This document shows positions 3,290 to 30,546 of a DNA stretch of 64,000 nucleotides, in pieces. The position numbers and the translations under genes were made by a program. The stretch is from Campylobacterales bacterium (GTDB lineage Bacteria > Campylobacterota > Campylobacteria > Campylobacterales > Sulfurimonadaceae), in NCBI GenBank assembly GCA_026390115.1, contig JAPLGO010000038.1, positions 186,001 to 250,000 on the forward strand, written 5' to 3'. The notes below the pieces were generated by a model. The model saw only the letters and a list, made by a program, of their open reading frames with translations. It searched no databases and had not been told where the DNA came from. Every line of letters begins with the position of its first letter. Position 1 is the stretch's first letter.

Positions 3290-3332
3290 TATACACATTT
3301 TTATACACTTCATATTGTTTTAAAGTGGTTTA
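3290..3332. repeat. Left arm-type repeat of the element end
   Basis: This 43-nt segment matches 30013-30055 at 38 of 43 positions without gaps and in the same orientation. Each copy contains TATACAC twice. The left copy starts 49 nt inside the core repeat and the right copy ends 107 nt inside it. Paired repeats just inside both ends are expected for integrase or excisionase arm sites; the binding protein is inferred. Confidence 0.55.
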
Positions 3333-4952: not shown

Positions 4953-4955
4953 GTT

Positions 4956-15555: not shown

Positions 15556-15978
15556 AAAAAAAGGAGCAATCCCCTTTTAATCCCCAAAAGCATCTTCGAT
15601 GATCTAAAACGCTACGCTCCGACAAAGAGCAAAATCTAATTTACTCTATTTTTTTAACAAAAAGACTAAACACAATTTAATCAAATCTTCATTCATGCAA
15701 ATGCATCTTCTGTTAGTCAAAGCTTTGAGTCATTTAACTTTAATTTATTTAAACTGAATTATTTTCTGAAATTGTTACTCAATTTATAGAAATAATCAAG
15801 TTGTAAAATATTACATACAATCCTCGAAAGCCCGAAGAACTAACAGAAGAAGCAAAGCTTCAATGAGAGAAAAATTTGAGGAAAAAGGTATTTAGTCTTT
15901 TTAAAAAATAGAAAGATTAGATACAAGAAACCCTCAGAATCTTCAAAAAAAGCAAATCAAATCAAAAAGGATTCAGAA
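15556..15978 (+). promoter_or_regulatory. Structured leader C (upstream of ArdC-like gene)
   Basis: Long non-coding leader. In order: a CCCCTTTTAATCCCC box with a small hairpin (CATC-TTC-GATG at 15591-15601); an outer 11-bp perfect stem CTTCTGTTAGT (15707-15717) pairing with 15839-15849; inside it an A+T-rich hairpin (about 15757-15774 with 15781-15797); then a 13-bp stem 15888-15900/15912-15924 (two G-T pairs). It ends with the box ACCCTCAGAATCTT (15929-15942) before the gene's ribosome site. Leaders A and B share this architecture with different paired bases. It is either a single-stranded-DNA promoter or a structured RNA. Confidence 0.5.
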
Positions 15979-16380
15979 ATGAACACAAACACAAATACAC
16001 CAGTAGTAGAAACAACAGTTGCTCCAGTAGCTCAAAGACATTACAAAAAAACAGTAATCGAAATGTACACAGAGGCGGTTGACAAAGCAGTATCAAGCAA
16101 AAAAAGTGCTACACAACTAAGTGCGTCAGGACATGAATATTCAGGCTTAAATAAAGCAATTCTAAATGAAGCAAAAGCTGAACTTGGCTTCAAAAGCAAC
16201 AAATGGTTCTCCACAAAACAGATGCAAGAAGCAAACTTAGTTGCAAAATTTGAAAATGACTTTGGAGTAATCTTGTTCTCGACCATTCTAAAAGAGATAG
16301 AAGGCTCTAAGAAAAAAACAAAAGTTATCAAATACTATCGTGTGTTCAATGAAGATTCATTGGAAAATCTACCACTTTAA
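15979..16380 (+). CDS. Hypothetical accessory protein with ArdC-like terminal pattern
   Basis: 133 residues, ATG preceded by AAGGATT. A Thr/Asn/Val-rich N-terminus (about 18 residues) is followed by a basic helical part. The C-terminus ('FGVILFSTILKEIEGSKKKTKVIKYYRVFNEDSL') resembles the 'KK-x-K-h-x-Y-Y-x-V-F-N' segment of ArdC-type single-strand DNA-binding domains. That fits a role in protecting incoming DNA, as for ArdC encoded later in the element, but the zinc-protease half is absent. A short terminator follows. Confidence 0.4.
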   Translation: MNTNTNTPVVETTVAPVAQRHYKKTVIEMYTEAVDKAVSSKKSATQLSASGHEYSGLNKAILNEAKAELGFKSNKWFSTKQMQEANLVAKFENDFGVILFSTILKEIEGSKKKTKVIKYYRVFNEDSLENLPL

Positions 16381-16381
16381 G

Positions 16382-16400
16382 CCCCATACTTTGGGGTTTT
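16382..16400 (+). terminator. Intrinsic terminator-like hairpin
   Basis: CCCCA at 16382-16386 pairs with TGGGG at 16392-16396, followed by TTTT. It sits right after the stop of the preceding gene, so it is a weak intrinsic terminator candidate. Confidence 0.5.
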
Positions 16401-16432
16401 ACATTCAAAAATTAAAACTAAAAGGGTTATAA

Positions 16433-16720
16433 ATGAGTTTACTTACACAAAAACAAGCGAGCAGAGTTCCAGCACTTTACACTCAGGAAGATGTCAAAGA
16501 TCCAATCGTTTATTTAAAAATTAGTTGCCTTCATAGCTTTTGGCTCATCACAGAATTAGATGCGAACAAAGAACTTGGCTTTGGATTCTGTCAAATATTT
16601 GAAGGTGGTGGAGAGCTTGGATATGTGAGCCTCAAAGAGATAGAAGATTTGCCATATCCAATAACGATAGTAGAGATGGAAAAACCGCTATCAGCTCTAA
16701 AAAAGGAACTCAACCTATGA
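16433..16720 (+). CDS. DUF2958 domain protein
   Basis: 95 residues beginning 'MSLLTQKQASRVPALYTQEDVKDPIVYLKIS', with 'FGFCQIFEGGGELGYVSLKEIEDL' in the middle. These are the signature segments of DUF2958, a small single-domain family typical of conjugative and mobilizable elements, often near ArdC-type antirestriction genes. Its biochemical role is unknown. An 8-bp perfect hairpin spans the stop codon (16705-16712 with 16718-16725). Confidence 0.75.
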   Translation: MSLLTQKQASRVPALYTQEDVKDPIVYLKISCLHSFWLITELDANKELGFGFCQIFEGGGELGYVSLKEIEDLPYPITIVEMEKPLSALKKELNL

Positions 16721-16770
16721 GTTCCACAAAGGAGATATGTAAAACGCATTTCACATACCAGAAAATTATC

Positions 16771-17133
16771 TCTAAGCCCATCCCCTTAACCCTACCATAG
16801 TCATGCAAGCATGACAAAAAATCTTTATTAATTTAAATTTTTAAACAGAAAAAGTCTCAATCAACTTGCTTAACAATCCATCATAGTTATCAGTTATGTT
16901 TTTAAGTGTTTCACTTTACATCAAGAAAACTTATAAGAAAAATCAATATTCATTAATTTTTTTCTAAGTTTTTTGATAGCTCAACACAGCATAAAAAGCA
17001 TACCTGAGAAACTAAAACGGAAGAAAGTTAAGCAAAAGAGAGGTTCTGACTTTTTCTTGAAATTTGAATTAAGAAAGAGGAAAAAGCACCCTTCAAAATC
17101 TTAACAAAAGAAAATTCAATTAAGGAAGAGAAG
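16771..17133 (+). promoter_or_regulatory. Structured leader A (upstream of DUF7222-like gene)
   Basis: 413 bases separate the flanking genes, and most of them fold. In order: a CCCCTTAACCC box; a small hairpin GTCATG-CAAG-CATGAC (16800-16815); an outer 9-bp stem TTGCTTAAC (16866-16874) with 17027-17035; inside it a stem CAGTTATGTTTTT with 16994-17006 and a long imperfect A+T-rich stem (about 16921-16942 with 16956-16976); then a tail hairpin (17050-17058 with 17071-17086); finally the box CACCCTTCAAAATCTTA. It aligns with leader B along its whole length, with compensatory changes in the stems. Confidence 0.55.
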
Positions 17134-17529
17134 ATGAAAATCAAAAATCTAAAAAATTACAAAGCGACAACGGAATTGGAAAAAGAGGTTATTAAAATAA
17201 TTATAGACGAAGCAAGCGACTATGAAACTTTTGAATCATATTTGAGTGATTTATTATCAAATGGATGTGTTAGCGGAATGGTTGGAGCATTGATTTACTA
17301 CACAGATACACAAGCTTTTACAAAAAGACATGCAAGCGACATAAATGAACTTTTGGCAAATACACTCTCTATGTGTGGTTTCAATAGTTCAGTTGAATTG
17401 TTTGGCAAAAAATGGGATGCAGAAGATAGTTTATGCCTATCTCAAAATAATCAAAACTTGATGGCATGGTTTGCACTTGAAGAAACTGCAAGAAATATTG
17501 GAATTAGTTTCGATTTAGATGTGGCTTAA
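17134..17529 (+). CDS. DUF7222-like accessory protein
   Basis: 131 residues; GGAAGAG precedes the ATG. The core 'YETFESYLSDLLSNGCVSGMVGALIYYTDTQAFTKRHASDINELL' matches the 'GC-x-SGM-h-x-x-LIYY-x-D-T' pattern of a small family found with antirestriction and mobilization genes. It is preceded by one of the three long structured leaders, which suggests that it and ArdC are controlled together. The function is unknown. An inverted repeat GTGGC/GCCAC spans its end. Confidence 0.5.
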   Translation: MKIKNLKNYKATTELEKEVIKIIIDEASDYETFESYLSDLLSNGCVSGMVGALIYYTDTQAFTKRHASDINELLANTLSMCGFNSSVELFGKKWDAEDSLCLSQNNQNLMAWFALEETARNIGISFDLDVA

Positions 17530-17562
17530 ATGCCACTTCTTACAAAACAAGGAGAGTATAAA

Positions 17563-17814
17563 ATGAGATTAGAAGATAATGCAGAGCTATTAAAAAGAGC
17601 TGGTTATGTGGAAATTACAGATGGAAATCACTTGATATATATTCAAGAAAATTCAAATGGTGGATTCGATGGAAGCGTGTATATAGAAAAAGATTACACA
17701 GAAGATAATGATATTGACTGCATAGATGGCGGAGTGTTTGAAGATGATTCAGCCGTAGATGCTATCAAGTTTTTTATAGAAATGGCTGAAGATTTAGTAA
17801 AAGGAGGCAATTAA
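17563..17814 (+). CDS. Small acidic hypothetical protein
   Basis: 83 residues from the ATG at 17563, which has a good ribosome site (GGAGAG, 7 nt). The frame is open back to an ATG at 17530 that would add 'MPLLTKQGEYK' but lacks a site. It is acidic, with 'EKDYTEDNDIDCIDGGVFEDD' in the middle. No family is recognised. It is part of a run of small accessory genes left of the candidate oriT. Confidence 0.5.
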   Translation: MRLEDNAELLKRAGYVEITDGNHLIYIQENSNGGFDGSVYIEKDYTEDNDIDCIDGGVFEDDSAVDAIKFFIEMAEDLVKGGN

Positions 17815-17815
17815 A

Positions 17816-18064
17816 ATGCCCCTTCTAACACAATCAAAAGTCATGAATGATATTGCAAAATTTCAGAACGAATGGAAAAATGAAGACTGGTGGTATGGCT
17901 CAACAGACTCATACAACAATGCAATACATGGTTACGATGTAAGCGTACTACATGATGAAGATACAAATAAAATTGAAGCGGTGGTTTATGAATTATTTAG
18001 GAATGATGAGGATGAATTAGAAATTGGCGAAGTTTTATTTAGAGTAAATATATGTGGGAAATAA
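17816..18064 (+). CDS. Small acidic hypothetical protein
   Basis: 82 residues with a strong AAAGGAGG site 8 nt before the ATG; it starts 2 nt after the preceding stop. It begins 'MPLLTQSKVMND' and is rich in Asp, Glu and Trp ('NEWKNEDWWYGSTDSYNN'). The 'M(P/S)LLT' start is shared with the DUF2958 gene and with the upstream extension of its neighbour. Acidic small proteins in leading regions often mimic DNA to block restriction enzymes; that is only a possibility here. Confidence 0.5.
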   Translation: MPLLTQSKVMNDIAKFQNEWKNEDWWYGSTDSYNNAIHGYDVSVLHDEDTNKIEAVVYELFRNDEDELEIGEVLFRVNICGK

Positions 18065-18129
18065 ATGTTCACTTATATTGTGGAAGTTCCCAAAGGAATA
18101 ATTAAGGTAATAATCGCTATACTTCTCTT

Positions 18130-18146
18130 GTCAATAAGTTATTGAC
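18130..18146. promoter_or_regulatory. Perfect palindrome, candidate operator
   Basis: GTCAATAA-G-TTATTGAC, an 8-bp inverted repeat around one central base, flanked further out by ACTTCT (18121-18126) and AGAAGT (18161-18166). It lies about 35 nt before a start codon, where a repressor site or 5' hairpin would act. Confidence 0.4.
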
Positions 18147-18181
18147 CAACTTTTAAAAATAGAAGTTGTAAGGAAGAGAAA

Positions 18182-18583
18182 ATGAATTTTGATGATATAA
18201 GAAAAAGAAATTTAGACCATATTCAATATTGTATAGATGAATATGGGTTGAAGATGAGCATCGATGATATATTAGCGTTTGCAAATGTTTATGCTCAAAG
18301 TGATCTCAACAGAAGGACAATTCGTTTAATTGGAGAAACGAAAGGAAGTGTTGATCAAAAGGTTAAATATACAAAAGTAGTTTTGTTTAGTTTAACCCAA
18401 AAATATCAAAATTTTATTACCGAAGAAGTAGTTAATAAAACTTTTCAAGATTTTAGTTTGATAGCTCCATATCATACGCAACTGAAATATATGAATAAAA
18501 TTGAAGAGTTAGAAGGTGATCAGGTAAAAACCTGCTTGAATTTATTAACAATTTTTGCAGATAGACCAGTGATTAAAATATAA
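18182..18583 (+). CDS. Hypothetical protein
   Basis: 133 residues, predicted all-helical from sequence pattern, with AAGGAAGAG before the ATG. No motif or family is recognised. It has its own upstream palindrome and is followed by a clear terminator, so it is probably a separate transcription unit inside the accessory region. Confidence 0.5.
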   Translation: MNFDDIRKRNLDHIQYCIDEYGLKMSIDDILAFANVYAQSDLNRRTIRLIGETKGSVDQKVKYTKVVLFSLTQKYQNFITEEVVNKTFQDFSLIAPYHTQLKYMNKIEELEGDQVKTCLNLLTIFADRPVIKI

Positions 18584-18620
18584 GAGACATTTTCTAAGAC
18601 AAAATGCCTCTTATTCTAAT
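18582..18620 (+). terminator. Intrinsic terminator
   Basis: A 12-bp stem with one mismatch (AAGAGACATTTT at 18582-18593 with AAAATGCCTCTT at 18601-18612) is followed within a few bases by a run of seven T. It starts at the stop codon of the preceding gene. Confidence 0.75.
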
Positions 18621-18671
18621 CTTTTTTTGCGGAAGTTCCAAGAGGAAGATTTAAATCAAAAAGATTCAGAT

Positions 18672-18884
18672 ATGAAAAACAAAATATCAACAAAGAGTTT
18701 AACAATAGAATTGACAGAACTTGAATACTATGAATTATTAGCTAAGTTAGCTAATGAGCTTGAAGTTTATCAAGATCAAGCATCAACTGATTTAGAAACT
18801 GTATTCACAAAAATTTATAAATCTAATTTATATCAAAGTGAACAAACAAGCTTAGTGCAAAAATTTATAAAAAAATTAGATTAA
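18672..18884 (+). CDS. Small hypothetical protein
   Basis: 70 residues from the ATG at 18672; the frame is open upstream to a TTG at 18627, but that part reads like leader sequence. Pattern: 'TKSLTIELTELEYYELLAKLANELEVYQDQASTDLETVFTKIYKS', a strand followed by helices, as in small ribbon-helix-helix or related proteins. No family is recognised. The ribosome site is weak. Confidence 0.35.
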   Translation: MKNKISTKSLTIELTELEYYELLAKLANELEVYQDQASTDLETVFTKIYKSNLYQSEQTSLVQKFIKKLD

Positions 18885-18970
18885 TCAAAAATATACAAAA
18901 GGTGTTCCAATAAGTTTTTGGAACTGGTTTAAAAACTAATAGCCCATTAGCAAATGGCGAAGAAGGAAAT

Positions 18971-19624
18971 ATGAAAACATTAGAAATTAACATAATCAAA
19001 AAAAATAGAAAATACTTCAAAATTGCAATTAATAATTACACATGCAAATTATTAATTGATGATAATTCTCAAAACTTAGACTTAGGAATTCAAACCTTAG
19101 TTGTAGAAGATATTAGTGTTGTCACAAAATTTGGAACAGATGTAATATATAAAGTAGCCGCTTCCATCGAGGAACAAAAAAATGCTGGCATAACAACTAT
19201 TCATACCCCATTTTATAATGTAAATTTAATTAAAAAATGTAGAAATCTTGGTGGACAATGGGATAAAAACTCATCTTCTTGGGTGTTTTCTACAATCGTT
19301 GAGGATGAAATTGAACAATTAAATGAGATTTGGAATTCTGAACTCATCACAGTTAATTTAAAATTTGAGAATAGTTCATATGGAGATCGTGATAGCATAT
19401 ACTTCAAAGGGTTTGTGTTGGCAAAAGCAACAAGCAGGGATTCCAAAGCAGTATTAGGCTCAAATGTGTTGTTAATTGAAGGTAAAATTGGTAGTGGTGG
19501 ATCTGTCAAAAATTGGACAACAAATATACACCCAGAAACTATTTTAAGGCTTCAAGTTCCAAAACTTGTTTTAACAGATAAAGAATTAAAAGAGTTGGAA
19601 GAAACAAATTTTATTGTTATTTAA
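18971..19624 (+). CDS. Hypothetical protein with GG-x-WD motif
   Basis: 217 residues; GAAGGAAAT precedes the ATG. The segment 'NLIKKCRNLGGQWDKNSSSWVFS' (about residues 90-112) matches the short 'K-x-LGG-x-WD-x-x-x-x-x-W' module seen in plasmid and phage proteins that handle DNA. The rest has no recognised domain. It is the last gene before the candidate oriT. Confidence 0.45.
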   Translation: MKTLEINIIKKNRKYFKIAINNYTCKLLIDDNSQNLDLGIQTLVVEDISVVTKFGTDVIYKVAASIEEQKNAGITTIHTPFYNVNLIKKCRNLGGQWDKNSSSWVFSTIVEDEIEQLNEIWNSELITVNLKFENSSYGDRDSIYFKGFVLAKATSRDSKAVLGSNVLLIEGKIGSGGSVKNWTTNIHPETILRLQVPKLVLTDKELKELEETNFIVI

Positions 19625-19647
19625 ATAACAATAATAAAATCTTATTT

Positions 19648-19755
19648 GAGATTTTCTATCGATTTCTACGAAATCTCATTATTTAGAGGGGGACTACTGT
19701 CACTTTGTGATAGTAAAGTCCTAAGAGCTTTTAAGCCCAACAACAGGGCTTAAAA
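19648..19755. other. Candidate oriT (hairpin cluster in 328-base gene-free stretch)
   Basis: Three inverted repeats lie within 108 bases: GAGATTT/AAATCTC (19648-19654/19671-19677), GGACTACTGTCAC with 19707-19721 (one interruption), and a perfect 10-bp stem TTTTAAGCCC/GGGCTTAAAA (19729-19738/19746-19755). None is followed by a T tract, so these are not standard terminators. The rest of the gap (to 19953) is A+T-rich with no other feature seen. The position, just before the mobilization protein and coupling protein genes, is where oriT is expected. The nic site cannot be identified by eye. Confidence 0.4.
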
Positions 19756-19953
19756 CGAGTGTAATTTTATCTTTTTATAATCCTCTATTTCACGACAATT
19801 CATTTCAAGAACAACACCCCCACAAACACCTAAATCACGCATAGTTTCACACTTATAAATAATCTTTACCAAAAGCCTTAGATTTTTTCATCTCTTCACC
19901 CTACAACATAACAAGCATTATCAATAATGCTATCTAAATCAAAGAGGTAAAAG

Positions 19954-20247
19954 ATGCGGAAAAAAAGAACAGTAGGATTCTACCTAACACATGCAGAAGC
20001 AGAAAAATTCAATGAAGTTGTCGAATCCACAGGGCTTCAAAAAATCCAACTATTTCGACAAAGAATGCTTGAACAAGATAAAGTTTTGGAGCTTATCAAT
20101 ACTAAATTTGATACCCAAAGCCGTGAAATAAGTCACTCTATTGAGTGGTATATTGAGCAAGCGATAAATAATTTATTGCTTTCAGAGCTTAAAGAGATGA
20201 AGGAAATTATGGTTTCCATTCAAGAGAGATTGAGAGGTGCAAGATGA
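19954..20247 (+). CDS. Mobilization accessory protein (ribbon-helix-helix-like)
   Basis: 97 residues, with AGAGG before the ATG. The N-terminus 'RKKRTVGFYLTHAEAEKFNEVVESTGLQKIQLFRQRML' has the basic strand plus two helices of MobC/TraY-type ribbon-helix-helix proteins. A helical C-terminus follows. Such proteins bind oriT and recruit the relaxase. It is the first gene of a three-gene overlapping set ending in the coupling protein, which supports the role. Confidence 0.6.
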   Translation: MRKKRTVGFYLTHAEAEKFNEVVESTGLQKIQLFRQRMLEQDKVLELINTKFDTQSREISHSIEWYIEQAINNLLLSELKEMKEIMVSIQERLRGAR

Positions 20248-20684
20248 AAATAGATGATATTTACAGAAAAATACGAGTGAAGAAATTCTTAGATATTGAA
20301 CCAACAGATGTCATCGAAGATGCAAGAATGATCGGCTACTTTGTCACTGGTGCACATGCCAATAATCTTACAGCGGTTAGAATCCCAGATTATGAAGAGA
20401 TAGTGATAATGGATTTTGAAGAGATTAAAAACACTTATCGTACTGACACAACCTATCAACCTTTCTTTCTTCAAAGAGCCAAATTTGATATTTCTGACTT
20501 CTCAAAATATCAAATTTTAGATGTAATAATCGATAAATCACAAAAAGCTTGGCTTGTAAAAGAAGTAAAAAATGATGAAATTATGGTGCAAAAATATCCG
20601 TTATTAAACAAGGATAATGTTTTGTATAAGGTGAATGCCAAAAATACTCCTCAAATAGAGAGTGTGTGGGAGGTTACATTATGA
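20244..20684 (+). CDS. Hypothetical protein of the mobilization operon
   Basis: 146 residues, overlapping the previous gene by ATGA and the coupling-protein gene by ATGA. Alternating strand pattern ('NLTAVRIPDYEEIVIMDFEEI'; 'AWLVKEVKNDEIMVQKYPLL'). No signal peptide or membrane segment is seen. The strict coupling on both sides implies a job in the transfer complex. No family is recognised. Confidence 0.5.
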   Translation: MKIDDIYRKIRVKKFLDIEPTDVIEDARMIGYFVTGAHANNLTAVRIPDYEEIVIMDFEEIKNTYRTDTTYQPFFLQRAKFDISDFSKYQILDVIIDKSQKAWLVKEVKNDEIMVQKYPLLNKDNVLYKVNAKNTPQIESVWEVTL

Positions 20685-22462
20685 GAGAAGAGCAATATAG
20701 TATTTATGAAAAATATAATCTACTAAAAAACTCAATGGTACTCTCTGCTCCTTTAATTATATCGAATTTACTAATTTCAATCACTGGCGGTATTGTCTCT
20801 ACGCTTGTAATTGTAAACAGTTTTGAGAAAAGCTTACCATTAAGTTATGACTATGTAAAACTTTATACAAGAGCAATGTTTACACTTGCATCATCTATCA
20901 ATGTCAATGGAAGTGAAGTTTTAGCGATTGATATTCTAAGACAACTTGAACCAAAAATGTCTGATATGTATTTGTATCTATCATTTTATTTCATGATTGG
21001 ATTTGTGGCAAGTGGAATGGTTGCGTGGTACATTATTAAAAAAATATCGGATGAGCATTCAAATCAAAAGTTAAAAGACACGCATCTTAGAGGCACAACC
21101 ATACTCTCTCAAAAAGAGTATTCCATCATCTCCAAAAAAATAGATGGTTACTCTCTTGCAAAAGATACAGTTCTATCAAGAGAACATGATACCAAACACT
21201 TTATGATAATGGGAGCAACTGGAAGCGGTAAGACTAATCTCATTATAAGAAGCATCCATGCACAAGCCAGTTATCCAAAGAACATAGAAGTTGGTGCCAA
21301 GTTCATCATCCATGATTTAAAGCCCGACTATATTCAAAAAATCTACAACCCAGATACAGATTTGATATACAATGTTTCAGACCAGCGAAGCATCTATTTC
21401 AATTTTTTTAATTATCTGTATGATGCAAATGGCAATTTAGATGAAAAAGCCTTAATCAATATATGCCATACCATCATCCCAGACTCTAACTCCAAGGATC
21501 CGATTTGGGATGTATTGGCTCGTAATGTTTTAGAGTCAATTTTAACTTATTGTATGCTTACAGAAAACAGATCTCTAACTTTTGTAAACGATATGATTCA
21601 AAAATCGCCCTCTGACTTAATCAATATTTTTAATAGCGTTGAAGGATGCAATAAGGGAGTTCAAGCTCTTACAGGTGGAGAGAATACAGTTGGTTCAGTC
21701 ATGGTAACTCTGGCAGCAAATGCAAGATATTTTGAGGGATTGAATGAGAAGTGCCATAGTCATAAAGAGAGCTTCATTATCCAAAAATGGCTCAATGATG
21801 GAAAGGTTTCTAAATTATTCTTAATCAATGATGTGGCAAATAAAGATTTCAACGCTCCAAAAATTGCAGTGTTTGTGAACACATTGATAAAAGAGATTTA
21901 TGCAATGAGAGAAAATCCAAATCGAAGAATCTATCTCTATCTTGATGAGTTTGGAACTATGAGTAAAATTCCAGCCATCCCAGAGGCAACGGTTGTGGCA
22001 AGAAGCTTTGGATTATCTATCATTCTTTCTACACAAGAGTTCGCACGCATAGATGAAATCTATGGACAAAATTTGAGAAAATCGATGCTAAACTCTTTGA
22101 CGAATAAAATCATTATGAGACAGACCGACCCAGAAATGGCGAAATACTTCTCTGACATGATTGGCGAAAAAGAGATTGAGCAGTCCAGCTCTGGTGCTTC
22201 CATTGGAATACAAGCGATGAAAAATGGAGTCAATTTTAACAAGAGTGTCAAAAAAGAATTCACTGTGATGCCTTCCGAAATTATGGAGTTGAGGGATTTT
22301 GAGTTTTTTGTTAAACAACCAGATGTGAAATGGGGAAAGATACAATGTTCCTATATGCCAGAAGTTGATGGTAAAAGTTTGAACAATCCAGCCCTTGTTT
22401 TATGTAAAAACATAGGGATTATCCTTCCGCCTAAAAAGGAGTTGCGTGAGATTTTTGGATAG
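20681..22462 (+). CDS. Type IV coupling protein (VirD4/TraD-like)
   Basis: 593 residues from the ATG at 20681 (GGAGG 7 nt upstream; a GTG at 20666 is a less likely start). Two N-terminal membrane segments ('LIISNLLISITGGIVSTLVIV' and 'LSFYFMIGFVASGMVAWYII') precede a cytoplasmic ATPase with Walker A 'GATGSGKTNLI' and Walker B 'IYLYLDEFGTMSKIP'. It also has 'STQEFARIDEIYGQ' as in TrwB/TraD. It links the relaxase-DNA complex to the mating channel. No channel genes accompany it, so the element presumably uses those of a co-resident element. It converges on the relaxase gene. Confidence 0.88.
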   Translation: MREEQYSIYEKYNLLKNSMVLSAPLIISNLLISITGGIVSTLVIVNSFEKSLPLSYDYVKLYTRAMFTLASSINVNGSEVLAIDILRQLEPKMSDMYLYLSFYFMIGFVASGMVAWYIIKKISDEHSNQKLKDTHLRGTTILSQKEYSIISKKIDGYSLAKDTVLSREHDTKHFMIMGATGSGKTNLIIRSIHAQASYPKNIEVGAKFIIHDLKPDYIQKIYNPDTDLIYNVSDQRSIYFNFFNYLYDANGNLDEKALINICHTIIPDSNSKDPIWDVLARNVLESILTYCMLTENRSLTFVNDMIQKSPSDLINIFNSVEGCNKGVQALTGGENTVGSVMVTLAANARYFEGLNEKCHSHKESFIIQKWLNDGKVSKLFLINDVANKDFNAPKIAVFVNTLIKEIYAMRENPNRRIYLYLDEFGTMSKIPAIPEATVVARSFGLSIILSTQEFARIDEIYGQNLRKSMLNSLTNKIIMRQTDPEMAKYFSDMIGEKEIEQSSSGASIGIQAMKNGVNFNKSVKKEFTVMPSEIMELRDFEFFVKQPDVKWGKIQCSYMPEVDGKSLNNPALVLCKNIGIILPPKKELREIFG

Positions 22463-22463
22463 A

Positions 22464-22486
22464 AGAGTCTCCTCTATGGAGGCTCT
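22464..22486. terminator. Terminator between coupling protein and relaxase genes
   Basis: A 9-bp stem (AGAGTCTCC at 22464-22472 with GGAGGCTCT at 22478-22486, one G-T pair) is followed by GATTTT. It lies between convergent genes, so it could end transcription from the coupling-protein side. Confidence 0.65.
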
Positions 22487-22490
22487 GATT

Positions 22491-25400
22491 TTATATTGAC
22501 CTACCTGCATCAACAGCTTTAACACTCTCTTTTTGTGCTATTTTTTCGTTTGATGTATTTTCAACTTTTTGAATTTTCGGCTCAACTGAATCATATTGAA
22601 GTGTTGAAGTCTTCGTTTGCTCTTTGGTGACTTGCGTTTTTAGCTCCACTACATCATCCGTGAACACTTCTGATTTTAGCTTCTGCCTTGTTTGTTGCAC
22701 ATGAAAATCATTGAGGTTTGTTCCCTTCTCCGTGTTGACATGCGTTTGAGTTCTCTCTATTGAAACACCTTGACTGCTACAATTTGTTCCTGAAAATCCG
22801 TGGTTAAGTCCATGTTGCTTTGTAGCATCCAGCTCTTTAATATTTCCATTCCCAAAATCAACCTTCATCATAGATTTTTCTTTATCAACACCAATCACAA
22901 TCCCACGATCTGAGTTGAGTAATTTCTCTTTTTTATCTGTAATAGTGATAACTACGATGTCGCCCTTTGTAAAGTTTTTTGTTTCATCTTTTGTTATGCT
23001 CAACTTTCCAGCTGCATCTTTGAGATTCACTTTTCTAAACTGATCTTTGCCATTGCTACTCGTATGCTTTAACATAAGTTCGTTGGTGTTTCTATTTAAT
23101 TTTAAAATCTCATACTCTTTGCCTTTGTCCATCCCTTTGACATTTTGAAAGGTGCTCACTTTTTGACCTATTGCATAGTTGTCCGCTATGACTTGATTCG
23201 ATGGACTCATATTAATTGGTACTTTTACTCTCATCTCTATGCCATCATTTTTATTGATTTGACCGCTTTCATGAAGTTTGTCACGCACCAATTCATTCAG
23301 TTTTGCAACATCATCTTTTCGTGATGTTAGAATTAAATTACTTGTATAATCTATCTGCTTTGAGAAGGTACCGTTATGATTTGTGCCACTGAGTATTTCA
23401 ATTTTAACGGCGGAGTCGGCTACTGCATTTAGTCTTGTAGCTTCATCTTTTATTTCGTGTATTTTGTTTGACCTGTGCAGCTCTTTGAAAGTTCTCTCAA
23501 GTGTTTGAGTATCTCTTGCGTTGTGAGCTATCTCTTTTTCTGATGGATTTTGCTGTCGTAGTATCTCTTTCATTTCTATGACATTGCTATTGGATGAAAC
23601 TTGCTCCAATCCTTTTCCAGCAGAAATCGCTTGTAGCTGTTTGGAATCACCCATGAAAATAATTTTTATATTATTCTCTTTTGCATGTTTCATAATAGCG
23701 TTGACATCTTTTGAGCTTAACATACTCGACTCATCTATAATCAGCATCTTATTCGTTTTTGAAGTATCCGATCTTATCTTTTGAGTCTCTTCTTTGCTTA
23801 GAGTGGCATTTATTTGAGACTCTTTTGATTCTTTCGTGGTATAGTCGAATGAAGAGTTTTGTATCCTAACATCGTTGTTTTTTGGCTCATCTTTTGAGGT
23901 TTGAGCGAGGATTTCTGTTTTTAGTGATTTATCCATAAATGAGAACTCTTTTGTGGTTTTTGAGGCAATGATGTTTCCCCTATCGTCTTTTATCTCTTCA
24001 TTTGTGATTTTGGAAGAGAATCCGAGGATAGACTTCTTAATCGAGTTGCTGTTTTTCTCTTTTGTAGTGATGCGTGACTCTTCTATGGAAGCTATTTTTG
24101 CAAAACTGATACTGCTATTTGTTTGACTCATATCTGCATTTTTGGCTTCACTGTAATTTTGTTTAATTCCAAACTTTGCTTTGATGCTGTTAGTGTTGGA
24201 TTCTTTGGATTGAAAAGAGTATTGTGAGCCGTCTTTAAATGTGGTCTCTGATTTATAAGTAGTCTCTCCATTTTTACTGCTTAACTTCTCTTTTCTGATT
24301 GCACCATCATTCAGTTTTGTTTGGCGAGATGTACTTGTGTTAGAGTTATCTTTTAAACTTATTGTGGCTACTTTTAAAGCATCCTTGCCAGAGGTTACAT
24401 ACTTTTGTGCATCTATCTGTTTGCCAGATGTTTCACTATGAGCATTTGCTTGTTTTGAGTCGAGGATAAATTTTGTGGTGGTTTTTGCTTCAAATGATTT
24501 TCCGCTTTGAAGCGTTGACTCTTTCTTGGCTCCTTGTGAAGCTCTATGTGTGCTTGATAATAATGTGACTTCTACTTTTGAATTATGATACTCTAAGGAG
24601 TGGTTGAGAGCTTGAAGCATAGTTGTTTTTCCTGATCCAGCATATCCCTGAATCACGAGTGTTCCATCGTTTGATGATAGAATTGTTTTGGCACTCTCAA
24701 ACTGTCCTTCCGTTAATTTGAAATTCTTTGACTCAAAATCTCTCAACGCTTCGGTTGCATCTTTTTGACTCATGAGTGCTTTTGAGGTATGGTTTTGAAC
24801 CAGCTTTATGTTCTCTCTCTCGATGTCGTGAATCTCTTTTGTGGTGTATGTTTTTTCGCCCTTTTCATTTTCGCCCAGAGACTTGACCTCATAGTTTTCT
24901 GTTTGTCCTATCTTCTTTACTTGATCCAGCTCTTTTTCTAAATCACTGTACGAAAACTGACCCAGAGAGATTTTTGATGAGATATTTAGGAGTTCTTTTT
25001 TAGTAAAGGTTGATTCGTTTTCAGAAAGTAAGCTTGCACCTTTTTCTATCGCTTCTTTTGCATCTTTGAAGTAAAAATCCGTCTTGCCAAGTGCTGATTC
25101 TCGCAAATCTGCAAAGCTTGCGTAGCCAACTTCATTGAGCTTTTTATTCCAATTTTCTCTTAGCTCTTGTTCTGTAAAATCAACTTTATCAGATTTGAGT
25201 TTATGTTTTGTGATCATCTCTTCTTTTTTGCTCATGCCTGCTGTTTGAGCTTCTATCTCTTTGGATCTGGAAGAGAATTTATCTATCACTTCTTGTGGCA
25301 TCTTGATGTCGAATCCATGCTTTTTATCTTCGAGTTGGTATCCAAGTGTAACAATTTCTTTGGCTAACTCTGATTTATAGATTGCGTTGAGGGTACTTTG

Positions 25401-25970
25401 ATTTTTAAATAGCTCTTGTGCCGAGAGAGCTTTGAATTTTTGAGTCTCTGCATTATAAACTTGATTGAAAAGTACAGCATGGGTATGGAGATGAGCATTG
25501 GGTGTTGGATCTTCTTTTGTAGCTCTTGCAACACTGTGGTTGGCACGAGCAACTAAGATGTTTCCATGATTCACATCATCTCTATTTGCACCCTCTTGTG
25601 TGTTGGCAAAGTTTTTCTCTGCATATTCGAGAGCTTTTGTGACGGCTTTATCGTGTGCTTCAATTAATCTCTCATCGCCGTTTAGAGCCAGCAGAGAAAC
25701 GGATTTATTGCTTGCAAACACCATGTCGTAACACGAAACGGATGATCCAGTTGCATTGTTTGTATCTCTTAGAGTCGTTTCGCCATCCGCACTTTTTCCA
25801 TTTAATAGGTTCTCAAACTGCTCCTTGGACACCTGAGCCTCTAAGCCCAGCATCTCTGCTTGTTTCCCAAACCATGTGAGATTATTGTTTGCACCCTCTT
25901 TATTGAAGAGTGGATCTTTTTCATAGTAATACTCTTTTGCTTTGCCAGCACTTATTTTTGCGATAACCAT
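22491..25970 (-). CDS. MobF conjugative relaxase-helicase (TraI/TrwC-like)
   Basis: 1159 residues; a perfect GGAGG stands before the ATG. The N-terminal relaxase has a run of three tyrosines (14-16) near the start and the metal-binding triad H160-x-H162-x-H164 ('AHLHTH'). It nicks oriT and stays bound to the strand. The helicase has Walker A 'GYAGSGKTT' (442-450), 'IIDESSML' (744-751), 'GDSKQLQAISAG' and 'NCSSQGVSIERTQ'. Between Walker A and Walker B lies an extra block (about 504-738) rich in Ser, Thr, Lys and Asn, not expected in this family. The gene is alone on the minus strand, opposite the coupling protein. Confidence 0.88.
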   Translation of the reverse strand: MVIAKISAGKAKEYYYEKDPLFNKEGANNNLTWFGKQAEMLGLEAQVSKEQFENLLNGKSADGETTLRDTNNATGSSVSCYDMVFASNKSVSLLALNGDERLIEAHDKAVTKALEYAEKNFANTQEGANRDDVNHGNILVARANHSVARATKEDPTPNAHLHTHAVLFNQVYNAETQKFKALSAQELFKNQSTLNAIYKSELAKEIVTLGYQLEDKKHGFDIKMPQEVIDKFSSRSKEIEAQTAGMSKKEEMITKHKLKSDKVDFTEQELRENWNKKLNEVGYASFADLRESALGKTDFYFKDAKEAIEKGASLLSENESTFTKKELLNISSKISLGQFSYSDLEKELDQVKKIGQTENYEVKSLGENEKGEKTYTTKEIHDIERENIKLVQNHTSKALMSQKDATEALRDFESKNFKLTEGQFESAKTILSSNDGTLVIQGYAGSGKTTMLQALNHSLEYHNSKVEVTLLSSTHRASQGAKKESTLQSGKSFEAKTTTKFILDSKQANAHSETSGKQIDAQKYVTSGKDALKVATISLKDNSNTSTSRQTKLNDGAIRKEKLSSKNGETTYKSETTFKDGSQYSFQSKESNTNSIKAKFGIKQNYSEAKNADMSQTNSSISFAKIASIEESRITTKEKNSNSIKKSILGFSSKITNEEIKDDRGNIIASKTTKEFSFMDKSLKTEILAQTSKDEPKNNDVRIQNSSFDYTTKESKESQINATLSKEETQKIRSDTSKTNKMLIIDESSMLSSKDVNAIMKHAKENNIKIIFMGDSKQLQAISAGKGLEQVSSNSNVIEMKEILRQQNPSEKEIAHNARDTQTLERTFKELHRSNKIHEIKDEATRLNAVADSAVKIEILSGTNHNGTFSKQIDYTSNLILTSRKDDVAKLNELVRDKLHESGQINKNDGIEMRVKVPINMSPSNQVIADNYAIGQKVSTFQNVKGMDKGKEYEILKLNRNTNELMLKHTSSNGKDQFRKVNLKDAAGKLSITKDETKNFTKGDIVVITITDKKEKLLNSDRGIVIGVDKEKSMMKVDFGNGNIKELDATKQHGLNHGFSGTNCSSQGVSIERTQTHVNTEKGTNLNDFHVQQTRQKLKSEVFTDDVVELKTQVTKEQTKTSTLQYDSVEPKIQKVENTSNEKIAQKESVKAVDAGRSI

Positions 25971-26039
25971 CTTTGATACCTCCTATATATTTACTATGTA
26001 GTAAGGCATCAAATCTTTTTTATAGAGATTATTTAAACT

Positions 26040-26882
26040 TTATACATTTAGCCCTGCTATAAGTAGTGTTCCATTTTGGATTGGTATGTTACTACCGAAT
26101 ATTGGCGAGTCAAAATCTATAATATGTAATTCATGTTTTATCGTGTCTTGCCATTTTTCCGCATTACTCATCTTGTTTTTTGGAATAATTACTTGCTTTT
26201 TAGGAGAGTTTATACTAAATGTTACATGTTGCACAGTTTGATATTTCAAATGCTCATAGATAGAAATTGTTAGTGTAGTATTCTCATTAATTGATTTGAT
26301 GGCAGGATTTAGAATTCTATTTTTGAAGTGACTATATCTTTCATATTTGTCTTGTAAATTGAGTATCTTATAAATATTTCCAAGGTGCATTACGAACTCT
26401 TTGCCAGTTGAAAACTGTTTCATCAAGAGGTAGAGGCGTTTTGTGTAAACACTTTTAAATGATAGAAATTCTTTGAGTGAAGCGACTGTGTATTTTGTTC
26501 TTTGATCTATTACAATATCTGTTAGAGTATTATTGAGTTTGAATTGTATTGTGCCACCATCGTATTCAAAGGTTGACAATAAGGGTGTACTTATTTGTTT
26601 ATCCTCCATCTTAAATTCAAAACTAATATCAAGAAGCTCTTGCCCTGCTTGTTGCATACTCTCTTTTTTAATTCGTCTTGCAAATCTTCTTTGAATCTCT
26701 GCTAATGATGTTTCATATAAAAATAGTTCATCATCTTCTTTTGTTACTTGTGTAACAAGTAAAAAAAATATATCCAATGCCAATTGGCTTAATTGTGATT
26801 GTGTTTGGTTGAAAGAGCTGTGTATTGAAAATGCATCTCTATTTGAGAGGGTGTGGGTTGTGCGATTGTATTTATACTTCAT
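26040..26882 (-). CDS. Plasmid replication initiator (Rep_3 family)
   Basis: 280 residues. The two winged-helix halves of Rep_3/RepB initiators can be followed: 'FSIHSSFNQTQSQLSQLALDIFFLLVTQV' at the front, 'SLKEFLSFKSVYTKRLYLLMKQF' in the middle, and 'EFVMHLGNIYKILNLQDKYERYSHFKNRILNPAIKSINENTTLTI' in the second half. It binds iterons to start theta replication. An iteron-like array lies about 200 bp upstream of its start. Its presence in an integrated element implies that the excised circle can replicate, or that the element descends from a plasmid. Confidence 0.85.
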   Translation of the reverse strand: MKYKYNRTTHTLSNRDAFSIHSSFNQTQSQLSQLALDIFFLLVTQVTKEDDELFLYETSLAEIQRRFARRIKKESMQQAGQELLDISFEFKMEDKQISTPLLSTFEYDGGTIQFKLNNTLTDIVIDQRTKYTVASLKEFLSFKSVYTKRLYLLMKQFSTGKEFVMHLGNIYKILNLQDKYERYSHFKNRILNPAIKSINENTTLTISIYEHLKYQTVQHVTFSINSPKKQVIIPKNKMSNAEKWQDTIKHELHIIDFDSPIFGSNIPIQNGTLLIAGLNV

Positions 26883-27083
26883 TTTTTACTTCCTTTTATA
26901 TTTTGTTCTGTGGATCCTTAATAGGGCTACTATTGCCAGTTTAAATTTTTTTAACCATTTGTCAATGCATTGAAAGCTATTAACAAATTGATAGTATCTA
27001 ATATCAACTTAATTAAATCTTAATACTTCTATATTTACTTGTTTATTATTTCTGTATTTTCCAAAATATACGAAACTCAATAA
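26883..27083. other. A+T-rich region upstream of rep
   Basis: Gene-free and strongly A+T-rich, between the rep start and the iteron-like array. It fits the melting region of an iteron-controlled origin. No repeat or ORF stands out. Confidence 0.35.
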
Positions 27084-27205
27084 GTGGCTTACGCACACTC
27101 CTTGTGGCTCATTCTTACACAACATGTAGCTCACTTTCACACAAAAAGAGGCTGGTATTTACACTCTTTGTGACTACACTCAACTCAATGTATGGCTTGT
27201 AATTC
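27084..27205. repeat. Iteron-like array, candidate oriV
   Basis: Six degenerate units start at 27084, 27104, 27126, 27148, 27170 and 27190, giving spacings of 20, 22, 22, 22 and 20 bp (about two helical turns). Units begin GTGGCT or close variants (GTAGCT, GAGGCT, GTGACT) and most contain TTACAC or TCACAC. They lie upstream of a Rep_3 initiator gene, where iterons are expected. Confidence 0.6.
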
Positions 27206-27339
27206 TTTTTATCTTCGTACCATAGGAGCTTAACGGGGATGCTAAAAGCTTTAATCTAATAATCTTAAATTAAGAAGCTTAATAAGAATCCTCCTAAAAG
27301 AAATATGAATTCTTATGAATCTTTTTTTTTATACTTTAT
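27206..27339. other. Spacer with an inverted repeat
   Basis: Non-coding. It holds an imperfect inverted repeat around 27249-27283 (AAGCTTTAAT ... ATTAAGAAGCTT). Nothing else is seen. Confidence 0.3.
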
Positions 27340-27433
27340 GATCCCCATCTTGAATTTTTATAACCGTTGAGATTACCTTGGGATTTTAATAATTTAAGAG
27401 AAGAGAATATATTGGACGAGTTGACTTGTCAAT
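27340..27433 (+). repeat. 94-bp direct repeat, copy 1
   Basis: Aligns without gaps to 27474-27567, 77 of 94 identical. Both copies keep TTTAAGAGAAGAGA and a CCATC-TGAATT box. The sequence has no reading frame. The position between the iterons and a structured leader suggests a regulatory or origin-related duplication. Confidence 0.65.
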
Positions 27434-27473
27434 TCACATAAACTTCTCTAAGCTCATCATCATGAACTTTATT

Positions 27474-27567
27474 GATTCCCATCGTGAATTGTTATAACGG
27501 TTGTAATTGCCTTGGTAATTTAATTATTTAAGAGAAGAGAGTATGTTAGACAAATTGATTTATCAAT
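27474..27567 (+). repeat. 94-bp direct repeat, copy 2
   Basis: Second copy, 134 bp downstream of the first. It is followed immediately by structured leader B. Confidence 0.65.
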
Positions 27568-27579
27568 AATTATAAAGTT

Positions 27580-27929
27580 TTTAAGCCTAACCCTTAACCC
27601 AGCCATAGCACTCCATGAGTGCAAGCATCTCTCTTTTTCAAATTTCTTAATCAGAAAAAACCACTCCAATATCTAACAATCCATTGCATTATCAGTATGT
27701 TTTAAGTGTTTAAGTATGTATTCAAATCAACTGATAAGAAAATCACCAGTAGCCAATTTTCTTCTAAGCTGTTTTGATACTCAAACACCCTGTAAAACAT
27801 ACCCGACAACTCAATGGAAGAAAAGTTAGATAAAGGAAGTGAGTTTGTTTTTTCTTGAAAATTTGAAAAAAAAGAGAGAACAAAAAAACACCCCTCGAAT
27901 CTAATAAAAGAAAAATTAAAGGACTTAAA
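27580..27929 (+). promoter_or_regulatory. Structured leader B (upstream of ArdC)
   Basis: Aligns with leader A over its whole length. In order: CCCTTAACCC box; small hairpin GCACTC-CAT-GAGTGC (27608-27622); outer 8-bp stem TATCTAAC (27670-27677) with GTTAGATA (27825-27832); inner stem GTATGTTTTA with TAAAACATAC; a long imperfect stem (about 27723-27742 with 27757-27776); a tail hairpin from about 27843; final box CACCCCTCGAATCTA. Stem bases differ from leader A while pairing is preserved. See leaders A and C for the shared interpretation. Confidence 0.55.
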
Positions 27930-28781
27930 ATGCAATTAGAAGATGTAATGCAAAGACTCATAGATAAAATCGAAAACAGTAATGGAGAATGGATTAAACC
28001 ATTTAATAATTCAATGCCAATGAATTTTGTGAGCAACACGGAATATGTAGGGATTAATATTCTTAATTTATGGATGGAGGCAGAGGAAAAAGGTTATAAC
28101 ACAAACAAATGGGCTACATTCCAACAAATAAAATCAAAAGGTGGCACAGTAAACAAAGGCGAGAAAGCGACAACCATTTTTTTCTTCAAACCATTGAAAA
28201 TTAAAGAAATAGATGAGACAGGCGAAAAGTTAGAAAAAACAGTGCCAATGCTTAAAACATATTTAGTATGGAATTTGGCACAAACAAATTTAAAAGAGGA
28301 GACAAATATAAACAGCGAGATCGTAGGATTAGAAGAGTTTGTGTCAAATATAGGGGTAGAGATAAGAACAAGCAACTCAGGTGCATTTTATCATCCAATT
28401 TTGGACTATATTAATATGCCAAACATTAACACTTTCATTAATTCTGAATTCTATTATGCAACGCTACTTCATGAATTGGCTCATAGCACAGGACATAAAA
28501 CACGACTTGATAGAGATTTCAGCGGAAAAATGGGCGGAACCGAGGAACAGCTTATCTCTTATGTGAAAGAAGAGCTAATTGCAGAAACGGCACGCTCATT
28601 TTTACAAGTAAAACTTGGACTAAATTCAACGAGAATGGAACAACAAAACGCTCTGTATTTGAAAAGTTGGCTCAAACCGCTCAAAGAGAATCCAAAAATT
28701 CTTTGGAGTATTTTTTCGGAGGCTTCAAAAGTGTATGGGTATGTTTTGGGGGAGAATCAGAGAAGGGAAGTGGTTGCTTGA
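27930..28781 (+). CDS. ardC: ArdC-type antirestriction protein (ssDNA-binding plus zinc peptidase)
   Basis: 283 residues. The N-terminal single-strand DNA-binding domain has 'WIKPFNNSMPMNFVSNTEYVGINIL', 'WATFQQIKSKGGTVNKGEKATTIFFF' and 'YLVWNLAQTN'. The C-terminal metallopeptidase has HELAHSTGH (about 186-194) with a downstream 'VKEELIAETA' glutamate. ArdC proteins protect incoming single-stranded DNA from host restriction. The 'GTVNKGEKA' and 'NIL-x-L' segments are family hallmarks. It is preceded by structured leader B, which suggests expression early after DNA entry. It converges on the integrase gene. Confidence 0.88.
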   Translation: MQLEDVMQRLIDKIENSNGEWIKPFNNSMPMNFVSNTEYVGINILNLWMEAEEKGYNTNKWATFQQIKSKGGTVNKGEKATTIFFFKPLKIKEIDETGEKLEKTVPMLKTYLVWNLAQTNLKEETNINSEIVGLEEFVSNIGVEIRTSNSGAFYHPILDYINMPNINTFINSEFYYATLLHELAHSTGHKTRLDRDFSGKMGGTEEQLISYVKEELIAETARSFLQVKLGLNSTRMEQQNALYLKSWLKPLKENPKILWSIFSEASKVYGYVLGENQRREVVA

Positions 28782-28836: not shown

Positions 28837-29961
28837 TTAAGTATCCAATAAATCAATTAATTTTGCTTCTTCTCGAATCAATTGCCAATATTTTTCAAAA
28901 GCTTCTTCAATATCTTTATGTGTATAGAACAAATAAGATTTTATTGTTCCTTTTTGAGCATGAGAAATACACGAATCAGCAAGAGTAGCATCTATTTTAC
29001 ATTTTGTAATCATTATTGACATCAACAATCTTCGTGTGTCATGTAATGACAAACTTTTTTCATTATAAAATTTTATATCTGTTAAATTTAATAATCTTAT
29101 AAAAATTGCATGAAGAGAACTTCTTTTTAAAGTTGGAAACAATAACCCACTTTCTATACTTTGTATATAATCTAAACACTCAGATGGAAATGGAAAATGG
29201 TATTCAGTATTTGTTTTTGATATAGAAGCTTTTGATATTATTTTCATTTCTTCAATAATAACATCTTCTTTTTTTAGTTTTAAAACTTCACTTACACGAC
29301 GTGAAGTCAACAAAACAAAATACAAATATGTCTTAATTTCTTGTTCTTGTGCTCTACAATGAACTTTATAAAATGAAATAGCATTATATATTTTAGCAAC
29401 AATCGATAGTGGATCTTCACTTGTTCGTTTCTCAATATTTTTGTTATTATTTGATTTATATCTCTTTAAATCGTTAGTTATATTCTCTTGAATAACTTTA
29501 TCTCTCACCGCTTGATCGAAAATTGGATACAACAACTTTTTTACAATATTTTTTGTTGAAGCTTCTTTGTCTGACAGATTTTCCGTGATTTTATTTAAAT
29601 CATTAATTGTAATTTTTTCAATTTTTTTATGACCAATAATTTTTTTGATATGTTTATTATAATAAAGAATATAACTCTCTTTTGTTATCTCTCTCCAATC
29701 TCCACTTTTTACCTGATCATCAATTCTTTTTTTCCATAGCTCGTCAAATGTAACAACTGTATTTACAAATGGATTCTTCCCTTGTGAAATCAACAACTTT
29801 ACTTCATTTAATTTGTCATAAGCTTGTTTTTCTGTATTGCAACCAAATTGCTTTGTAAAATTTTTAACTGGATATGTTGTGTTTAAATACTTAAATCTTA
29901 CAAATATTGCAGTAGAACCATCTTTCATTACTTTTTTAGTAATACCATTATATTTTCCCAT
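28837..29961 (-). CDS. Tyrosine recombinase / integrase
   Basis: 374 residues. An N-terminal arm-binding part and a SAM-like core-binding domain ('TFDELWKKRIDDQVKSGDWREITKESYILYYNKHI') precede the catalytic domain. That domain has 'LLTSRRVSEVL' (first Arg), 'LHDTRRLL' (H-x-x-R), 'SHAQKGTIKSYLFYT' (His and the nucleophilic Tyr). All catalytic residues appear present. It lies beside the right end of the element and should catalyse integration and excision at the 19-bp repeat in dinB. Confidence 0.9.
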   Translation of the reverse strand: MGKYNGITKKVMKDGSTAIFVRFKYLNTTYPVKNFTKQFGCNTEKQAYDKLNEVKLLISQGKNPFVNTVVTFDELWKKRIDDQVKSGDWREITKESYILYYNKHIKKIIGHKKIEKITINDLNKITENLSDKEASTKNIVKKLLYPIFDQAVRDKVIQENITNDLKRYKSNNNKNIEKRTSEDPLSIVAKIYNAISFYKVHCRAQEQEIKTYLYFVLLTSRRVSEVLKLKKEDVIIEEMKIISKASISKTNTEYHFPFPSECLDYIQSIESGLLFPTLKRSSLHAIFIRLLNLTDIKFYNEKSLSLHDTRRLLMSIMITKCKIDATLADSCISHAQKGTIKSYLFYTHKDIEEAFEKYWQLIREEAKLIDLLDT

Positions 29962-30092: not shown

Positions 30093-30182
30093 TCACTTAT
30101 AAGCCATAAAATAGGGATTTAACAAAAGTTTTGAGCTTATATGATAAATAAAAAAACAGTCTATATCTATATGTATTTTCAT
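30093..30182 (-). pseudogene. 5' remnant of dinB stranded by the insertion
   Basis: Starts with the native ATG and encodes 'MKIHIDIDCFF', the same first 11 residues as dinB, then runs on into element sequence and stops after 29 codons. Codons 7-9 differ from the intact gene only at synonymous third positions (ATA/ATC, GAC/GAT, TGT/TGC). TATAAT (minus strand, 30190-30195) lies 7 nt before the ATG, so the native transcript may have been leaderless. Confidence 0.7.
30163..30181. repeat. attR core (19-bp direct repeat)
   Basis: Identical to 3222-3240. Marks the right limit of the element and lies within the first codons of the dinB remnant. Confidence 0.8.
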
Positions 30183-30312: not shown

Positions 30313-30546
30313 ATGACAATCAGAAAAAACTTTTTACTCGATGAAGAGATTGCAGAGCATTTGGAAAAAATGGCGAAACAGAGAGGTATTACGCAGACTG
30401 AAGTGGTGAAAAATCTTATAGAACAAGAGTATGAAGAGTATTCAAAAGAGGAAAAACTTGAAGCTATTTATCAGTTTGCCGGAAGCGGTTCCGGACTTTG
30501 GGGTGATTTAACCATTCAGGAAGTCAAGGCAAACTGGGATGTATAA
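30313..30546 (+). CDS. Ribbon-helix-helix antitoxin
   Basis: 77 residues. 'MTIRKNFLLDEEIAEHLEKMAKQRGITQTEVVKNLIEQEYEEY' is a ribbon-helix-helix DNA-binding domain (strand, helix, GITQTE turn, helix). The short C-terminal tail ('IYQFAGSGSGLWGDLTIQEVKANWDV') would bind the toxin. It overlaps the toxin gene by 8 nt, the classic antitoxin-first order, and likely autoregulates the operon. Confidence 0.8.
   Translation: MTIRKNFLLDEEIAEHLEKMAKQRGITQTEVVKNLIEQEYEEYSKEEKLEAIYQFAGSGSGLWGDLTIQEVKANWDV

Follow-up and report, generated by a model that had tools for sequence, protein, structure and literature searches.

The closest described systems are the single-stranded DNA (ssDNA) promoters of the Frpo/ssi type, where ssi stands for single-strand initiation. 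Frpo1 and Frpo2 of F are reported to drive early, transient expression in the recipient in vivo (PMC9849209). An anti-CRISPR gene placed behind Frpo in a leading region is reported to protect transfer (PMC11541004), and ardC of R388 is reported to be required in the recipient, not in the donor (PMC7213743). The usual ways to detect promoters of this type are a -35/-10 consensus or a resemblance to one of a few known sequences (PMC11541004, PMC12826799). The stretch analyzed here, called the window, is 64,000 nucleotides of contig JAPLGO010000038.1 (positions 186,001 to 250,000, forward strand) from a Campylobacterales bacterium of the Sulfurimonas group (GCA_026390115.1). It carries an integrated mobile element with three structured leaders, designated A, B, and C. 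Each leader is probably an ssDNA promoter of the Frpo/ssi type, expressing anti-restriction genes on entry to the recipient. The leaders are read in this way because their template-strand hairpins, the ArdC-type genes behind them, their single direction, and the MobF element that carries them match Frpo/ssi, and because Frpo1 and Frpo2 of F, the Frpo-driven anti-CRISPR, and ArdC of R388 give precedent.

The proposed sequence of events is as follows. In conjugation, the minus strand of the element would enter the recipient as ssDNA. Each leader on the incoming strand would fold back into a duplex-like hairpin of about 250–290 nt. Host RNA polymerase could bind the folded hairpin and read the downstream ArdcN, DUF7222, or ArdC gene from the ssDNA template, and anti-restriction proteins would thus be made ahead of the second strand. 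The leader transcript may additionally prime second-strand synthesis. Transfer of the minus strand, the start of the polymerase within the hairpin, and the early timing are what we infer here.

Anatomy and covariation of the leaders

Leaders A, B, and C directly abut the starts of open reading frames (ORFs) at 15979, 17134, and 27930, respectively, all on the plus strand. Each is a single imperfect hairpin of about 250–290 nt, ending shortly 5' of the start codon. On the minus strand, the long hairpin of leader A (15634–15922) has 108 pairs, that of leader B (16822–17078) has 99, and that of leader C (27628–27879) has 101. They include exact stems: CTTCTGTTAGT/ACTAACAGAAG in leader A (15707–15717/15839–15849, gap 121), TTGCTTAAC/GTTAAGCAA in leader B (16866–16874/17027–17035, gap 152), and TATCTAAC/GTTAGATA in leader C (27670–27677/27825–27832, gap 147). 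On its 5' side, each long hairpin has a small hairpin and a C-rich box; on its 3' side, it has a box with the pattern ACCC(C)TYnnAATCT. The C-rich boxes correspond to 15571–15585, 16782–16792, and 27590–27600, and the 3' boxes are ACCCTCAGAATCT (15930–15942), ACCCTTCAAAATCT (17088–17101), and ACCCCTCGAATCT (27890–27902), all given for the plus strand. On the minus strand, both boxes of every leader read as G-tracts on either side of the hairpin, and a G-quadruplex between these tracts is conceivable. Leader C is nearly palindromic: across 252 nt, it is 68% identical to its reverse complement.

A sequence-only reading of the window had placed structured leaders at these three sites, and its stems, small hairpins, and both boxes were all recovered. 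The sequences and gaps that it gave for the stems and small hairpins are correct; they were listed in the order B, C, A rather than in the order of the leaders. The stem that it called outer is not the outermost, as the pairing spans the full intervals of the long hairpins given above. Because the pairing extends so far beyond this stem, the inner stems and tail hairpin of that reading are largely segments of one long hairpin.

Eleven clear leaders are found in five genomes, and every one precedes an ArdC, ArdcN, or DUF7222 gene. Those in relatives are C58, C60, and A60 (genome G032), C61 (G046), A62 and B62 (G053), and A72 and B72 (G315). Among 398 genomes of the order, ArdC homologues are present in 16, the ArdcN-only protein in six, and DUF7222 in four, three of them above the cut-off. 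ArdC alone, used as a query against genome contigs, gave no confirmed match.

Seven leaders (C, C58, C60, B, B72, A60, and C61) were aligned with MAFFT based on sequence alone. RNAalifold predicts 61 pairs in this alignment, and 23 of them have changed on both sides at least once. More than one Watson–Crick type is seen in 32 of 100 core pairs, against 6–20 when the partners are slid by 1–3 columns. These counts from relatives uphold the earlier claim that the compensatory changes reflect selected structure. In 16 of 21 comparisons, similarity is higher in the right arm, which would be the transcribed side; the left arm is ahead in two, and three are ties.

A covariance-model search of relatives, which had been proposed as a check of that claim, recovers new leaders. 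Trained on C, C58, C60, and B, the model R1 finds B72 (151 bits), A60 (61.6 bits), and C61 (41 bits), none of which is in its training set. Weak model matches (14.6–19.3 bits) fall at the correct place and strand in G474, G336, A62, and B62. The sensitivity of R1 is incomplete: three of 135 genus genomes are matched, and G053, holding A62 and B62, is missed. Another model, R2, matches five of 396 genomes of the order. Three of the five are known, one is G050, where the match lies before ArdC (E 0.03), and one, G111, is false; the match in G111 was rejected as it is inside an ORF. Leaders B and C gave no blastn match against the plasmid collection. The 3' box might also pair with the right arm in a three-way arrangement, as a possible switch; this was suggestive by eye and is not supported. 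Its longest match is no better than in shuffled tails in 10 of 11 leaders, and in the sole exception, C61, the match is to a different segment.

Near-palindromic sequences in multiple copies per element could also be palindromic debris, left by inverted repeats of transposons or miniature inverted-repeat transposable elements spread through the elements. Debris of this kind is very unlikely here. The position relative to the gene is constant in all 11 leaders, and leaders A, B, and C of one element are strongly diverged, yet the pairing is retained.

The folded strand and the probable direction of transfer

DNA folding energies were expressed as z-scores against 60 dinucleotide shuffles. The z-scores of the minus strand are -6.1 (leader A), -6.6 (leader B), and -12.5 (leader C), and those of the plus strand are -5.6, -5.7, and -10.3. 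For all three leaders, both energy and z are thus lower on the minus strand than on the plus strand. The leaders share with Frpo/ssi promoters a stem-loop that is long and stable on the template strand. Template-strand z ranges from -6.1 to -12.5 in the 11 leaders (plus strand, -4.8 to -10.3), and of 13 leaders compared, 11 fold more stably on the template strand; these counts are not independent, because the copies are related.

The same bias is seen in all nine control stretches from the leading regions of F, ColIb-P9, and R388, two of which, judged by position, contain Frpo1 and Frpo2 as published; the remainder were picked by gene context. The Frpo1 and Frpo2 regions of F fold as long hairpins of a similar kind. 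Ordinary upstream regions from the loci analyzed have the more stable template strand in only 21 of 63 cases, taken as 300-nt windows, which are shorter than the leaders and sometimes overlap the preceding gene.

The G.T pairs are distributed in the same direction. In a strand-neutral count, G.T cells number 392 for the template strand and 255 for the coding strand, with the same side ahead in all seven reference choices. Among mismatches in folds restricted to Watson–Crick pairs, G.T is seen 27 times on the template strand and eight times on the coding strand. Whole pairwise alignments are a weak test: four close pairs give 34 for the template strand and 18 for the coding strand, directions summed, and all 18 rows, including distant and partly misaligned pairs, give 126 and 95. 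Against a composition control, the strand asymmetry exceeds two standard deviations in five of 11 leaders (C, C58, C60, C61, and B72). The folding preference for the template strand is a tendency and no proof. Between RNA and ssDNA, a choice left open by the sequence-only reading, the balance of evidence is for DNA, and for its minus (template) strand.

If the leaders were instead structured mRNA leaders, the plus strand would be made from an ordinary upstream promoter, and the RNA hairpin would control the gene by attenuation, stability, or translation. The plus strand does fold far below shuffles, the hairpins adjoin start codons, and the right arm with the 3' box is the more conserved side and persists in G050 without the hairpin. 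The strand bias points to the template strand instead. Rfam gives no match at gathering scores within the window, no terminator-like plus-strand site was seen in either of two regions scanned, and the downstream genes are establishment genes, not those of a single pathway. Control through mRNA is therefore considered unlikely, and an ssDNA promoter remains the preferred reading.

Leaders of this kind may also occur outside Campylobacterota. DUF7222 is present in three metagenome-assembled genomes of Clostridia, at five loci. Four of the loci (L114, L116, L117, and L119, in two of the genomes) have a long upstream hairpin with template z of -6.2 to -9.7 and a more stable template strand. At the fifth, L115, no comparable leader is seen, and the bias of the best window is toward the coding strand. 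The alignment of the four Clostridia leaders contains 28 pairs, seven of them with changes on both sides. R2 gives no match better than E 0.3 on the Clostridia loci. The hairpin of L119 (5410–5669) ends just 5' of a small ORF at 5677, which is followed by DUF7222. The surroundings of L119, with a PcfJ match above the cut-off and a PcfK match just below it, suggest a conjugative element. The region of L119 contains TTGACA-17-TATGTT; such sites are no commoner than in shuffles.

The origin of transfer (oriT) of the element is probably located at 19640–19953. This stretch is 83% conserved in G032 and, as in R388, precedes the genes for a ribbon-helix-helix (RHH) protein and a coupling protein. 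It contains a hairpin at 19729–19755, which is kept with compensatory changes, TTTTAAGCCC/GGGCTTAAAA versus ATTTCAAGCCCA/TGGGCTTGAAAT in the relative. Within the stretch, TTTTTATAATCC at 19772–19783, 5' of the RHH and coupling-protein genes, is also conserved in G032 and is likely an ordinary promoter.

In the circular form of the element, leaders A–C and their genes, all on the plus strand, point toward the probable oriT, and leaders A and B are its neighbours on what in R388 is the leading side. The gene order of leading genes, oriT, the place of TrwA, and TrwB is common to the element and R388. In R388, the nic motif and the leading genes are on opposite strands. Based on this synteny and on the strand of the motif, the minus strand of the window would be the transferred strand if the oriT is nicked as in R388.

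Hairpins on an incoming strand could serve as single-strand initiation sites only, priming the second strand like single-strand origins (sso) or primase sites, with the proximity to genes incidental. Hairpins that are long and imperfect are a typical feature of sso. Going by the title of a 1997 article by Masai and Arai, Frpo is reportedly a primer site as well as a promoter. Three copies in the element, each directly 5' of a separate establishment gene and in the same orientation, fit expression better, and the pairing of hairpin and gene recurs in relatives. A role in initiation only is considered improbable, even more so than control through mRNA.

Several observations weigh against the leaders being ssDNA promoters. 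Two of the 13 leaders, B62 and G336, have the strand bias the other way round. Under the composition control, B62 is again reversed, B and A60 show no asymmetry, and in A, A62, and A72 it is slight. Promoter-like sites are not enriched in the two regions examined (three found versus 3.1 expected, and three versus 5.5), and no conserved -35/-10 pair was found among the leaders. Most ArdC homologues of the order are without the hairpin, since template z falls below -5 at only five of the 19 ArdC-homologue loci scanned, three of which are C, C58, and C60. Upstream of ArdC in G050 (locus L017, G050:C20, about 1245–1474), the right arm and the 3' box AAATCTAACAAAG are kept and the long hairpin is absent. 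This leader could be a decayed copy or a hint of a separate role for the right arm. The covariance models miss A72 and leader A (9.9 bits with filters off). Of the three leaders that were said to be related, B and C are so, and the kinship of leader A is based on anatomy, boxes, and gene context. Leader C is far from oriT in the order of transfer, about 19 of 27 kb, and the transferred strand is deduced from synteny.

Other features of the element

The element is about 27 kb long, as it is bounded by direct repeats and its flanks are adjacent in a relative. An exact 19-bp repeat is present at 3222–3240 and 30163–30181, and a 17-bp repeat lies further in, at 3298 and 30021. In the relative G132, both flanks are adjacent and overlap in the 19-bp core, which corresponds to an empty site; G004 is likewise, with lower identity. 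The two 19-bp copies are the left and right attachment (att) cores. The left core coincides with the 5' terminus of a Y-family polymerase gene (1967–3241, minus strand, Pfam IMS), which is the insertion site. A tyrosine integrase (28837–29961, minus strand, Pfam Phage_integrase E 1.1e-6) is encoded within the element. Immediately outside the element, at 30313–30979, there is a toxin–antitoxin-like pair of RHH and PIN-domain genes.

Leader A is followed by a gene for an ArdcN-domain-only protein (15979–16380, plus strand, Pfam ArdcN E 9.8e-8) and then by one for a DUF2958 protein (16433–16720, plus strand, Pfam E 1.6e-9). Leader B is followed by the DUF7222 gene (17134–17529, plus strand, Pfam E 2e-18). 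Between this gene and oriT, more small genes without a Pfam match above the cut-off are directed at oriT (17530–19624, plus strand). Small hairpins with the repeated sequence GGAAGTTCC are seen at 18072–18105 and 18621–18654, 5' of two small leading-region genes. The gene following leader C encodes a full-length ArdC (27930–28781, plus strand), with both domains that define ArdC, the ssDNA-binding ArdcN and the zincin-like metallopeptidase domain (Pfam ArdcN and MPTase-PolyVal; PDB 6i89/6sna, E about 2e-44).

On the other side of oriT, the position of TrwA is taken by a small protein (19954–20247, plus strand) with a weak NikA-like RHH match (E 0.0099, below the cut-off). It is followed by a TrwB/TraD-type coupling protein (20666–22462, plus strand, Pfam TrwB_AAD_bind E 5.1e-63), a MobF (TrwC/TraI) relaxase-helicase (22491–25970, minus strand, Pfam TrwC E 7.5e-58, with matches to TraI/TrwC chains in PDB), and a Rep3 replication initiator (26040–26882, minus strand, Pfam). 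The interval from the Rep3 gene to leader C contains two direct repeats of 107 nt, 27339–27445 and 27473–27579, that are 79% alike. This stretch, conserved in G032, is probably the replication origin. The cargo includes a type I methylase gene (HsdM) with a DDE transposase-like ORF alongside (4497–7025). No mating-pore gene was found among the element proteins scanned by Pfam, a scan that covered part of the element ORFs.

Comparison with known systems

With the stretches of F, ColIb-P9, and R388 tested, the leaders show neither a significant blastn match nor a covariance-model match. They read as elements that would work like Frpo but share no detectable sequence with the tested Frpo/ssi. They also differ from Frpo/ssi in being A+T-rich and in having no recognisable -35/-10 pair. 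R388 carries, by eye, TTGACA-16-CATAAT before ardC, and no such pair stands out in the present leaders. The host, a member of Campylobacterota, and the genes ArdC, ArdcN, and DUF7222 are further differences.

The Frpo-like candidates of Samuel et al. (Nature 2024, PMC11541004) were detected, by the account in that paper, via similarity to five known Frpo/ssi sequences or via a -35/-10 consensus. Its main text contains neither "Campylobact" nor "ArdC". In the accessible text of the open-licence literature on Frpo and ssDNA promoters, leading regions, Campylobacter, Sulfurimonas, ArdC, and DUF7222, no such leaders of Campylobacterota are described.

It can be speculated, with slightly less than even confidence, that A+T-rich mobile elements in Campylobacterota use a class of ssDNA promoters with no sequence relation to Frpo, and that Clostridia have it as well, through common descent or independently. 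Such promoters would lack the classical -35/-10 and would be recognised mainly by the hairpin shape and an unpaired stretch, and genes of the ArdC and DUF7222 types across phyla would be zygotically expressed from these hairpins. The leaders fail both of the usual detection tests yet keep strand-specific covariation, which offers a similarity-free way to find promoters of this kind. The same approach could predict the transferred strand and the side of oriT. It could also reveal early-acting anti-defence genes in phyla hardly examined, and DUF7222 and the ArdcN-only proteins are candidates.

The sso of rolling-circle plasmids and of integrative and conjugative elements are strand-specific long hairpins that act on incoming ssDNA, as the leaders would. 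Unlike the leaders, they are not known to stand in front of several genes, one copy to each. R388 shares with the present element a MobF relaxase, a TrwB coupling protein, and ArdC in the leading region, as far as described in PMC7213743. The candidates in PMC11541004 are likewise predicted promoters of the ssDNA type, in leading regions that carry anti-defence genes. The leaders most resemble Frpo1 and Frpo2 of F and the ssi of ColIb-P9: long imperfect hairpins of the template strand, present in several copies per element and placed before establishment or anti-defence genes directed at oriT or, in the present element, at its probable site.

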